Part shown: positions 3 to 60,116 of the stretch, piece by piece | How the letters are laid out: each line of letters starts with the position of its first letter | Numbering within the stretch: the first letter of the stretch is position 1 | Source: Chryseobacterium sp. RU37D | GTDB taxonomy: Bacteria > Bacteroidota > Bacteroidia > Flavobacteriales > Weeksellaceae | Direction of reading: 5' to 3' | DNA length: 64,000 nucleotides | Assembly (NCBI RefSeq): GCF_900156075.1 | Contig: NZ_FTMM01000002.1 | Coordinates: 62,001 to 126,000, forward strand | The notes under the pieces: generated by a model | Told to the model about the DNA's origin: nothing | The model's database searches: none | The model's input: only the letters and a program-made list of their open reading frames with translations | Translations under genes and position numbers: made by a program

Positions 3-1236
3 AAAGTTGACCTTCCAAAACTGATGCAAAACTTCTCCAAACTCGATGACAAACAGCTTGGAGGTTTAATGAAAATGTTCGATCCAAATAAAAAGAAAAA
101 AGAGCTTCCGCCCATTGACGGTGATTTCTACGATATTTATCACACTTTAAGCCCTGAACAAAGGGAAATTCAATTAAAAGTAAGGGCTTTCATGGAAAAA
201 GAGGTGAAACCGTTGGTGAATCATTATTGGTTGCGTGACGAATTTCCTGTTGAATTAATTCCAAAATTTCAAAAACTGGATATTTGCGGTGTTACTTATG
301 AAGGTTATGGATGTCCCGGAATGCCCTTTTTAATGGAAGGAGTTTTAGCAATGGAAATGGCTCGAGTTGATGCTTCGATTGCAACTTTTTTTGGAGTACA
401 ATCCGGTTTGTCGATGGGTTCGATTTATAATGCAGAAGTTTGAAAAAATCGGAGCTTTTGGTTTAACGGAACCTGAAGTGGGTTCCGGAGCAGCGGGAGG
501 TTTAACGGTGACCTGCAAAAAAACGCCGGAAGGCTGGATTTTGAATGGGCAGAAAAAATGGATAGGAAATGCAACCTTTGCCGATTTAGTTATTATTTGG
601 GCTAGAGATTTAGATGATGGTGAAGTAAAGGGTTTTATTGTTGAAAAGGATAATCCGGGTTATTCTGTTGAAAAAATTAAAGGAAAAATGGCGTTGAGAA
701 TTGTTCAAAACGGTTTGATTACGTTAAAAGACTGTTTGGTAACAGAAGAAAACAGATTACAAAATGCAAATTCATTTAAAGATACGGCAAAAGTTCTAAG
801 AATGACCAGAGCCGGAGTGGCTTGGATGGCAACAGGTTGTGCGCGAGGAGCTTATGAAAGTGCATTAGATTATACCAGAAAAAGAGAACAGTTTGGAAAA
901 CCGATTGCTTCTTTTCAAATGATTCAAGGGCATTTGGTGGAAATGTTGTCGAATTTAACGGCGATGCAAACAATGGTTTTCAGGCTTTCCGAAATGCAGG
1001 ACGAAGGTATTTTAAAAGACGAACACGCTTCTTTAGCGAAAGTTTTCTGTACATTAAGAACAAGAGATATCGTTTCCAGAGCGCGTGAAGTGATGGGCGG
1101 AAACGGAATTTTGCTTGAATATGACGTGGCAAGATTTGTCGCTGACGCAGAAGCCATTTATTCTTATGAAGGAACAAAAGAAATCAATTCACTGATTGTT
1201 GGAAGATCGATCACGGGATTCAGCGCATTTGTATGA
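3..1236 (+). pseudogene. Acyl-CoA dehydrogenase broken by an internal deletion/frameshift
   Basis: The gene would encode an FAD-dependent acyl-CoA dehydrogenase of the glutaryl-CoA dehydrogenase/plant ACX4-like branch. The N-terminal half is read in one frame to a stop at 441-443. The rest, from MQKFEKIGAFGLTEP, is read in another frame from about 430 to 1236. The second part carries the family landmarks: the FAD-contact stretch GLTEPEVGSGA, GNATFADL, the MVFRL helix region and the catalytic-Glu region YEGTKEIN. At the junction (about 428-430) the usual stretch between GSIY and MQKFEK, roughly 13-14 residues in relatives, is missing. A loss of about 41 nt (2 mod 3) would explain this. The frame is open to the left edge, so the true start may lie before the window. 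A sequencing or assembly error is not excluded. Confidence 0.75.
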
Positions 1237-55602: not shown

Positions 55603-57090
55603 TTACTTGGAATGATTCATCATATTAGCATCAATGATAACGTTGAGCTGAGATGCCACTTTCATGCCAAGGTCAATATTTGCTCTGAAAAAATGACAAA
55701 GCTGGCGGTTGATAATTTCATCTCTTTTAGGGCCAGTGATTTCCTGCATGCTTCCTACAATATTGCTGACGAGGCTCTGTTTTTCTTCCGGTGTCATTGC
55801 TTTTGAATATAATAATCCTGGCTGAGTGTAGTGATCATCATCATTTTCATTTCTGCTGTAGCTTGCAACATGTGCACTATCCAACTCATATTCGTGGCTT
55901 TTGTAGTTGAAATCTGCTTTAATGTTATCAAAACTGTTTGGGTGATAATTCGGTTTGTCTTGATATTGGCTTGAGTCTGCCATGAAACCGTCTCTTTGAT
56001 AGTTATTAACTGCGAAAGGACATCTGTTTACTTCCAATTGGTGAGCATTCACACCAACTCTGTATCTGTGCGCATCAGGATAAGATAATAATCTCCCCTG
56101 AAGCATTTTGTCTGGTGAAAAACTAATACCATTGATTAAGTTGCTTGGCGAGAATGTAGACTGTTCCACGTGTGCGAAGTAATTTACAGGAACTTCGTTC
56201 AATTCCATTTCTCCTACCTCAATCATCGGGAAATCTTCATGGAACCAAACTTTCGTTACGTCAAAAGGATTCCATCTGAAATCTTTTGCCTGCTCTTCGG
56301 TCATTACCTGGATATATAAAGTCCATTTTGGGAAGTTTCCTGCCTCTATGGCGTTACAAAGGTCTTCCTGAGCAAAGTCCGGATTTTCACCGGCCATTTT
56401 TACGGCTTCTTCATTTGAGAAGTTTTTAATTCCTTGCTTTGTAATAAAATGGAATTTTACCCAAACCCTCTCATTTTTATCATTAATCATGGAATAAGTA
56501 TGAGACCCGAAACCGTGCATATGTCGATATCCGTATGGTGTTCCTCTGTCTGACATTAAAATCATTACCTGGTGTAAAGATTCAGGATTTAAGCTCCAGA
56601 AATCCCACATCATGGTAGCACTTTTCAAGTTGGTTTTCGGGACTCTTTTTTGGGTATGGATAAAATCGGGAAATTTTTTAGCATCTTTAATAAAGAAAAC
56701 AGGTGTATTGTTTCCTACTAAATCCCAATTTCCGTCTTCAGTATAGAATTTTAAAGCAAAGCCTCTTGGATCTCTCGCGGTATCGGCGCTGCCTTTTTCA
56801 CCGCCTACGGTAGAAAAACGAGCAAACATTCTGCATGAATTTCCTATTTTTGAAAATAATTTTGCTTTTGTATATTGACTGATATCGTGTGTTACAGTGA
56901 ATGTTCCATAAGCTCCGCTCCCTTTGGCATGAACGACTCTTTCGGGAATCCTTTCTCTCACAAAATGTGCAAGATTTTCCTGTAAAATAAAATCCTGAAG
57001 CAGAACCGGACCTCTGGGGCCAACGCTTTGTGAATCCTGGTGTTCATAGTAAGGACTGCCATTGCTAAGGGTTAATTTCTTAGAATCCAT
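55603..57090 (-). CDS. katA: Catalase (haem, small-subunit type)
   Basis: 495 residues. Splits hydrogen peroxide into water and oxygen. The distal His lies in RIPERVVHAKGSGAYGTF (about 58-75). The distal Asn is in the DGNWDLVGNNTPVFFIKD segment. The proximal Tyr motif is RLLSYPDAHRYRVGVNAHQLEVN. The length fits clade 3 small-subunit catalases. It is divergent from oxyR across a 560-bp gap, which fits peroxide-responsive control. On the minus strand the exact -7 box TAAATTTG (57144-57151) lies about 55 nt before the ATG. Confidence 0.95.
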   Translation of the reverse strand: MDSKKLTLSNGSPYYEHQDSQSVGPRGPVLLQDFILQENLAHFVRERIPERVVHAKGSGAYGTFTVTHDISQYTKAKLFSKIGNSCRMFARFSTVGGEKGSADTARDPRGFALKFYTEDGNWDLVGNNTPVFFIKDAKKFPDFIHTQKRVPKTNLKSATMMWDFWSLNPESLHQVMILMSDRGTPYGYRHMHGFGSHTYSMINDKNERVWVKFHFITKQGIKNFSNEEAVKMAGENPDFAQEDLCNAIEAGNFPKWTLYIQVMTEEQAKDFRWNPFDVTKVWFHEDFPMIEVGEMELNEVPVNYFAHVEQSTFSPSNLINGISFSPDKMLQGRLLSYPDAHRYRVGVNAHQLEVNRCPFAVNNYQRDGFMADSSQYQDKPNYHPNSFDNIKADFNYKSHEYELDSAHVASYSRNENDDDHYTQPGLLYSKAMTPEEKQSLVSNIVGSMQEITGPKRDEIINRQLCHFFRANIDLGMKVASQLNVIIDANMMNHSK

Positions 57091-57650: not shown

Positions 57651-58601
57651 ATGAACATTCAGCAACTGGAGTATCTTATCGCCGTAGATAAATACAAACA
57701 TTTCGGTAAAGCAGCGCAGGCATGTTTTATTACCCAACCAACGCTAAGTGCAATGATACAGAAATTTGAGGACGAATTGGATGTAAAGGTTTTTGACAGA
57801 ACAACACACCCAATCCGTACCACTGATGTTGGTCTTCAGATCATCGATCAGGCAAAGGTGATCATAGAATCTGTCAATGAACTGAAAAACAAAGCTAATC
57901 TGTTAAATAATATTCTGGGGGGAACTATTAATATAGGAATTATTCCTACTGTATCTTCTTTTATACTTCCAACTGAGATTTTCAAATTCCTTGAGGATAA
58001 CCCAAAAATCCAGATGAATATAAAGGAAATGACAACAGATAATATCATCAAATCTTTGAAAGCCGGTGAGCTGGATGCAGGGATTATTTCTACACCTTAT
58101 GATACGGCCGATGAATTTTATCAGGATTTCCTGTTTAATGAAGAGTTAATGATTTACAGTTCTGATACTGAAGCTAATAAGAAGAACTCTTACGTAGTTC
58201 CGGAAGAATTGAATACAGAAAAAGTATGGCTTCTGGAAGAAGGGAACTGTCTGAGAAACCAATTTGAAAATATCTGTCATTTAAAAGAAAATACCCTTAA
58301 GCCAAAGAATTTAGACTTCTTGGCGGCTAATATCCAAACTTTAGTTCATATGGTGGATAAAGTAGGAGGAATCAGTATTTTGCCGGAGTTGGCATTAAAC
58401 CAGCTTTCTGAAAAACAAAAGGAAAATGTGTTCAGATTTAAGAAGCCTTTCCCTTACAGAGAAATCAGTATTATATACTATAAACCAACTTTTAAGCAGA
58501 AAATTATTGATGAGCTTTCACATTCTATCAGAAATTCATTAGAGAAAAAACTGAATTATCACGAAAATCCTAAAGAGTTTGTAAGTATAAAACCGCAATA
58601 G
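57651..58601 (+). CDS. oxyR: Peroxide-sensing LysR-type regulator OxyR
   Basis: 316 residues. The N-terminal winged helix-turn-helix (about 1-60, QACFITQPTLSAMIQKFEDEL) is followed by a two-lobed LysR effector domain. The two redox cysteines of OxyR are conserved in spacing and context: C200 and C209 in NCLRNQFENICH, matching E. coli C199 and C208. It should form a disulfide on peroxide exposure and activate defence genes. The divergent catalase is an obvious target. Confidence 0.93.
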   Translation: MNIQQLEYLIAVDKYKHFGKAAQACFITQPTLSAMIQKFEDELDVKVFDRTTHPIRTTDVGLQIIDQAKVIIESVNELKNKANLLNNILGGTINIGIIPTVSSFILPTEIFKFLEDNPKIQMNIKEMTTDNIIKSLKAGELDAGIISTPYDTADEFYQDFLFNEELMIYSSDTEANKKNSYVVPEELNTEKVWLLEEGNCLRNQFENICHLKENTLKPKNLDFLAANIQTLVHMVDKVGGISILPELALNQLSEKQKENVFRFKKPFPYREISIIYYKPTFKQKIIDELSHSIRNSLEKKLNYHENPKEFVSIKPQ

Positions 58602-58662
58602 TTTTTATTATCAAAGCTGATAAATAGTTAGTTTAAAGAATTTTATAATTAATAAACAAAAA

Positions 58663-58694
58663 TTTTGAGTATTAAAAAATTGTACTTAAATTTG
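58663..58694 (+). promoter_or_regulatory. metK promoter
   Basis: TTTTG (58663-58667), a 19-bp spacer and TAAATTTG (58687-58694) are a near-ideal Bacteroidota promoter. RNA would start near 58700, leaving a leader of about 136 nt. Confidence 0.75.
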
Positions 58695-58708
58695 CCAACG
58701 TTTATGAA

Positions 58709-58760
58709 CGAGGAAAAATTTGACCTGATTGCGACCTCTATAAAAAAATGCTAAAACAGT
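58709..58760 (+). promoter_or_regulatory. SAM-II-like riboswitch in the metK leader
   Basis: The order of conserved blocks matches the SAM-II aptamer. A short P1 stem (GAGG 58710-58713 with CCTC 58735-58738) encloses ATTTGACC and ATTGC. It is followed by ATAAA (58740-58744) and GCTAAAA (58750-58756). CAG (58757-58759) can pair with CTG (58725-58727) in the loop to close the pseudoknot. The RNA would start about 10 nt before it. The gene downstream makes the ligand, S-adenosylmethionine, so feedback control is expected. Confidence 0.8.
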
Positions 58761-58835
58761 TTTACTTTTTTTAGTCATTCAGAGCAATTATTCTTATTTT
58801 TCTTCAAAATTTTAATCTAAAAAACAAAGAATAAT

Positions 58836-60116
58836 ATGTCTTATTTATTTACGTCTGAATCTGTTTCAGAAGGCCATCCGGATAAAATCGCCGATCAGAT
58901 TTCCGATGCTTTAATCGACCACTTTTTAGCTTATGATAAATCTTCAAAAGTAGCTTGCGAGACGCTTGTTACAACAGGTCAGGTAGTTTTGGCGGGAGAA
59001 GTGAAGTCCGATGCTTATCTTGATGTGCAGACGATTGCAAGAGAAGTAATCAACGGAATAGGGTATACAAAAGGGGAATACATGTTTAATGGTGATTCTT
59101 GCGGAGTTATTTCTGCTATTCATGAGCAGTCTCCGGATATCAATCAGGGTGTTGACAGAGCTGTAAACGACGAATCTTTTGAGACTAAGGCAAGCGCACA
59201 AGGGGCCGGTGACCAGGGGATGATGTTTGGTTACGCTACCAATGAAACCGCGAATTATATGCCGCTTGCATTAGACCTTGCACATACTATTCTTAAAGAG
59301 CTTTCAGCAATTAGAAGAGAAAATTCTGAGATCAAATATCTTCGTCCAGATGCAAAAAGCCAGGTAACAATAGAGTATTCTGATGATCATAAGCCAGTCA
59401 GAATTGATTCTATTGTAGTTTCTACCCAGCACGATGATTTTGGAACAGAAGAAGAAATGCTGAATAAAATCAGAGAAGACATTAAAAATATTTTGATTCC
59501 GAGAGTTGTTGCTTTACAAACTCAAGAAATTAAAGCTTTATTCAATGATCAGATAAAATATCATATTAACCCTACCGGCAAATTTGTGATTGGTGGCCCT
59601 CACGGTGATACAGGCCTTACAGGAAGAAAGATCATCGTAGATACTTATGGGGGAAAAGGTGCTCACGGTGGTGGTGCTTTCTCTGGAAAAGACCCTTCAA
59701 AAGTAGACCGAAGTGCTGCTTACGCAACCAGACATATCGCTAAAAATTTAGTGGCAGCTGGTGTTGCAGATGAGGTTTTGGTACAGGTTTCTTATGCAAT
59801 CGGTGTTGCTGAGCCTTGTGGTTTATACATCAACACATACGGAACTTCAAAAGTAGACCTACACGATGGAGAAATTGCTAAAAAAGTTTCTGAAATTTTC
59901 GATTTAAGACCTTATGCTATTGAGCAAAATTTAAAATTAAGAAATCCTATTTATCAGGAAACGGCTTCTTATGGACATATGGGTAAAGACCATTACGTGG
60001 CTGATAAAACGTTTAATAAAGGTCAGAAAAATGAATTGACGCTTACTGGGCTTGAATTTTTTACCTGGGAGAAACTTGACAAAGTTGATAAGATTAAAGC
60101 TTCTTTCGGGATTTAA
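58836..60116 (+). CDS. metK: S-adenosylmethionine synthetase
   Basis: 426 residues. Makes SAM from methionine and ATP. Motifs: [19 protein letters not shown] at the N-terminus, the [16 protein letters not shown]-binding hexapeptide region, and the P-loop-like [26 protein letters not shown]. All catalytic landmarks are present. The leader carries a SAM-II-type aptamer and the start is about 136 nt from the promoter. Confidence 0.97.

Follow-up and report, generated by a model that had tools for sequence, protein, structure and literature searches.

In the 64,000-nucleotide stretch of the Chryseobacterium sp. RU37D genome analyzed here (hereafter the window), the metK gene, which encodes methionine adenosyltransferase (S-adenosylmethionine (SAM) synthetase), is preceded by a member of the SAM-II (long loop) riboswitch family. 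Comparative analysis of its leader suggests that this element is probably a translational OFF switch for metK that hides the start region of the gene, which lacks a Shine-Dalgarno sequence. Somewhat less firmly, we favor an output that we did not find described for SAM-II in the literature searched, in which the linker between aptamer and gene contains two overlapping arms, one that would dissolve the aptamer and one that would cover the start region, and SAM decides which of them pairs.

A SAM-II (long loop) aptamer in the metK leader

The Rfam model RF01726 (SAM-II long loop) matches positions 58704-58764 of the forward strand over its full length (model positions 1-60 of 60) with a score of 64.7 bits, the gathering threshold being 44. 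The E-value is 3.5e-10 when the 64-kb window is searched and 1.6e-12 when the search is restricted to 300 bases. The gene downstream (58836-60116, forward strand) encodes a protein of 426 amino acid residues, which is identified as MetK by the TIGR01034 model (508.3 bits, cut-off 309.4). A sequence-only reading of this DNA had proposed a SAM-II-type element upstream of metK, and both matches, as well as the conservation of its sequence blocks in related leaders, confirm this proposal. The covariance-model check that it suggested did yield a significant match, but with RF01726 and not with the suggested model RF00521 (SAM_alpha), which produced no match in the leader at E-values up to 1. A search of the genome with RF00521 also returned no match, as did searches of control genomes, and the SAM/S-adenosylhomocysteine (SAH) riboswitch model RF01727 matched neither the window nor the leader.

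Both the sequence and the Rfam alignment place the strands of the P1 helix at 58710-58713 (GAGG) and 58735-58738 (CCTC). This helix shows a compensatory change, read by eye: it is GAGG/CCUC in the window and the family and GUGG/CCAC in other members of the order and phylum. The pseudoknot would join CTG in the P1 loop (58725-58727), assigned by analogy with the known SAM-II structure, to CAG in the 3' segment (58757-58759), which forms the 3' end of GCTAAAACAG (58750-58759) and is kept in relatives; the CUG/CAG complementarity itself was read in the window sequence alone. The remaining blocks follow in the SAM-II order, namely ATTTGACC (58718-58725), ATTGC (58728-58732), ATAAA (58740-58744) and GCTAAAA (58750-58756). 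All of these elements were found where the sequence-only reading had put them. The blocks also recur in related metK leaders, a check that it had proposed, the core blocks UUUGA, GAUUGC and GCUAAA being present in the window and in nearly all relatives read. From the end of CAG (58759) to the ATG at 58836 the spacing is 76 nt, close to the 75 nt estimated previously.

These data support the identification of the metK leader element as a SAM-II riboswitch, for which a preference for SAM over SAH is predicted. The aptamer family and its occurrence in Bacteroidetes are already known, and the window copy is a well-conserved member. SAM-II long loops were listed as RF01726 for Bacteroidetes and marine sequences by Weinberg et al. 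2010 (PMC2864571). They share the phylum, P1, the predicted pseudoknot and the conserved blocks with the window aptamer, and nothing that we tested distinguishes it from them.

The near-ideal promoter recognized previously is of the Bacteroidetes type, TTTG-N19-TAAATTTG. Its -33 element, TTTG (58664-58667), is separated by 19 nt from the -7 element TAAATTTG (58687-58694; TAnnTTTG), and both assignments are based on the sequence and on the pattern seen in relatives. Of 118 family members, 115 have TAnnTTTG ahead of P1. In 83 of the 118 the complete pattern, TTTG-N18-20-TAnnTTTG, precedes P1, its last base being 12 nt ahead of P1 in the median; at 354 control places this pattern was never seen.

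Distribution and genomic context

SAM-II was detected in every sampled genome of the genus (148/148), in 108 of 120 sampled genomes of the family and in 202 of 296 sampled genomes of the order. Wherever a strong match had enough flanking sequence to be read, metK was located downstream. Viewed from the opposite side, a SAM-II element above the cut-off lies directly upstream of 26 of 40 metK genes sampled across the phylum from named Bacteroidota records, including those of Bacteroides, Porphyromonas, Flavobacterium, Mucilaginibacter and Sphingobacterium. The metK link, singled out as notable in the sequence-only reading, is thus the norm in Bacteroidota and therefore not notable in itself. Second, weak SAM-II matches of 36 and 31 bits in sister genomes were left out of the counts: one of them (L119) apparently lies inside a coding sequence and the other (L099) is degenerate.

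Two overlapping arms in the linker

When the leader is folded without constraints, the minimum free energy (MFE) structure is a long anti-aptamer hairpin and not the aptamer. Its outer pairing joins GAGGAAAAAU (58710-58719) to AUUUUUCUUC (58796-58805), and its inner pairing joins UGAUUGC (58726-58732) to GCAAUUA (58784-58790). On the DNA, the anti-aptamer arm accordingly has an inner part, GCAATTA (58784-58790), complementary to TGATTGC, and an outer part, ATTTTTCTTC (58796-58805), complementary to GAGGAAAAAT; both emerge from the MFE fold and from a cross-genus duplex test. The predicted duplex has an energy of -18.0 kcal/mol, compared with -9.4 kcal/mol for shuffled linkers. We divided the leaders of the family into long ones, with linkers of at least 62 nt (22 genera), and short ones, with linkers of less than 62 nt. 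The combined z-score of the duplex is -8.5 for the 22 long-leader genera and -5.6 for nine short-leader genera, and the mean z-score for 23 leaders from elsewhere in the phylum is -2.05. Relative to shuffled sequences, the whole leader shows no unusual folding stability (z = -1.1). A further segment, TTTTAG (58769-58774), can pair with CTAAAA of the aptamer (58751-58756); it is kept in many relatives, but its aptamer-side partner is invariant, so that no covariation test is possible.

Overlapping the anti-aptamer arm is a second one, the anti-start arm ATTATTCTT (58787-58795), whose target AAGAATAAT (58827-58835) lies directly before the ATG. In the RNA, all nine bases of AUUAUUCUU (58787-58795) can pair with AAGAAUAAU (58827-58835), whose last base immediately precedes the AUG. 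The pairing is kept with changed sequences in other genera (UUUCUUUUGU/ACAAAAGAAA, UUCCUUUU/AAAAGGAA, UUUCUAUUG/CAAUAGAAA, UGUGUGUUU/AAACACACA and UUAAGUUU/AAACUUAA). Misalignment of the start-region arm led us to discard a pair count made with the MAFFT alignment A1, and the pairs were read in register instead; since this register is that of the best pairing, a permutation test gives the fairer figure. We paired the start region of each genus with the linkers of other genera using the same maximization. In the 22 long-leader genera, own pairings were better than these between-genus mispairings (z = -5.5), and none of 100,000 permutations was as good. In an earlier mispairing test, which used 42 mixed clusters from the family and the order, the signal was weaker (p = 0.001).

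In the predicted folds, the partner of the linker arm is the start region in the bound state and the aptamer in the free state. Blocking the aptamer of the window leader, as a proxy for bound SAM, made the start region (-18 to +6) more costly to open, 7.5 instead of 2.5 kcal/mol, an increase matched by only one of 500 shuffled linkers. Among leaders of the same genus, 34 of 55 showed a rise that at most 1 of 30 shuffles matched, as did 24 of 35 long leaders from outside the genus but within the family.

Proposed mechanism and alternatives

Computation establishes the family membership, the metK context, the promoter and the complementary arms; that SAM binds, in which direction the switch works and that it acts on translation we infer from the comparisons and predicted folds. 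Without SAM, the anti-aptamer arm would pair with the 5' strand of P1 and with GAUUGC and dissolve the aptamer, which would leave the A-rich metK start region open. SAM would hold P1 and the pseudoknot together and set the linker free. The freed overlapping arm AUUAUUCUU could then pair with AAGAAUAAU before the AUG and hide the start region, placing metK under negative feedback by its own product.

Several observations weigh against this model. The start-region helix gave no signal (p = 0.82) in the family's short-leader genera, the signal within the genus itself is modest, with 8 of 42 mispairings as good, and elsewhere in the phylum the helix mostly fails (mean z = 0.68, 23 leaders) while the anti-aptamer holds. 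The split by leader length, which places the signal in long leaders only, was chosen after the data had been seen, and the genera are related by descent, so that the z-values overstate their independence. In some members of the genus a second segment, right after CAG, can also pair with the start region, and the blocking of every aptamer base imitates SAM binding only crudely.

In an alternative, SAM acts without the start-region helix, for example through mRNA stability or through an upstream landing site for the ribosome or S1 that is hidden in the aptamer and linker. Most leaders outside the family keep the anti-aptamer and show no start-region helix, and the S. meliloti metA mRNA is stabilized by the binding of SAM to a controlling element situated 74 nt ahead of the start codon (PMC9373788). 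Within the family, however, the helix covaries and a large change in opening cost is predicted, and we regard this alternative as rather improbable for the window leader. Control at the level of transcription, by termination or early release of the polymerase in the leader, also appears unlikely. It has precedents, as many alpha-proteobacterial SAM-II elements have terminators (PMC1273637; PMC2258182) and termination is predicted for the S. meliloti metZ element (PMC9373788). Moreover, the weak hairpin TAAAA-CAG-TTTTA with a T run, which the sequence-only reading saw at the 3' edge of the aptamer and which left the mode of control unclear to it, is present in the window. This A-U hairpin is not kept in the genus, though, which argues against a controlling role; a scan for intrinsic terminators found no terminator-like site at 58550-58900, and the conserved CUAAAA:UUUUAG pairing is expected in the SAM-free state, opposite to what feedback on metK would require. 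That the element resembles a riboswitch by chance or is a relic that no longer works seems extremely improbable: such an aptamer is A-rich and of small size, and weak matches inside genes do occur (L119), but a full-length match of 64.7 bits, presence in 148 of 148 genomes of the genus, metK downstream throughout and a conserved promoter all speak against it. A translational OFF switch operated by the two linker arms thus remains the reading that we prefer for the window leader.

Short-leader genera (g10, g21, g28 and others; for example, L045 and L068) keep the aptamer and the anti-aptamer arm and have no start-region helix; therefore, the output there must differ. Other lineages, such as Flavobacterium, with an anti-aptamer and no detectable start-region helix, may use another output.

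Comparison with known systems

The classic SAM-II element (RF00521), reported in 2005 upstream of alpha-proteobacterial metA with a few cases in the Bacteroides group (PMC1273637), shares with the window element the order of blocks, P1, the predicted pseudoknot and a methionine/SAM gene downstream. It differs in that its model does not match here, the gene is metK instead of metA and no terminator was found. The S. meliloti metA SAM-II element (PMC9373788) is likewise thought to act on translation from afar (74 nt there, 76 nt here); for the window leader we propose as target the A-rich stretch that immediately precedes the AUG. The SAM/SAH riboswitch RF01727 (PMC2864571) is another small pseudoknot sensor of SAM directly before metK, but it occurs in Rhodobacterales and has no match in the window. 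We found no description of the output of SAM-II in this phylum in the open literature searched, a search that did not extend to most subscription papers or to the supplement of PMC2864571. Within the searchable literature the proposed output appears to be new, and comparison among leaders supports it moderately well.

Other SAM sensors and neighboring features

The same genome contains two SAM-I riboswitches above the cut-off. One (L138, 1501-1609, reverse strand; G000:C41:11838-11946) precedes a metX-like gene, for which MetX_acetyl is the best model, although below its cut-off, and the other (L139, 1501-1605, forward strand; G000:C36:30144-30248) precedes a gene for a TonB-dependent receptor. 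SAM-I and SAM-II occur together in 82 of 120 family genomes, whereas a survey from 2007 found no species with both (PMC2258182). Unlike in that survey, SAM sensing in this genome is split between SAM-I, at the metX-like gene and the TonB-dependent receptor, and SAM-II, at metK. In a Polaribacter record (L179) the two are near neighbors: SAM-I (227-351, reverse strand) and the metK SAM-II (476-536, forward strand) are about 125 nt apart and point away from each other. In one genus of the family (g17), all nine sampled genomes (G163, G187, G203, G215, G224, G232, G238, G242 and G246) lack SAM-II and have SAM-I.

Directly upstream of the metK leader is a gene for a LysR-type regulator (57651-58601, forward strand), which scores best with OxyR models, under their cut-offs. 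Divergent from it is a putative catalase-like gene (55603-57090, reverse strand). The window also contains a thiamine pyrophosphate (TPP) riboswitch (RF00059; 28208-28308, forward strand; 68.1 bits).

Implications

Translational riboswitches are usually explained by the hiding of a Shine-Dalgarno sequence, and Bacteroidota hardly use such sequences. F. johnsoniae has no Shine-Dalgarno sequences, and structure close to the start codon tunes initiation in this species (PMC6847099). The proposed OFF switch would fit metK because the product of metK is SAM, and it would fit the lineage because Shine-Dalgarno sequences are lacking and structure near the start codon tunes initiation. If the proposal is true, the covarying helix before the AUG would show how Bacteroidota do the same job without a Shine-Dalgarno sequence.
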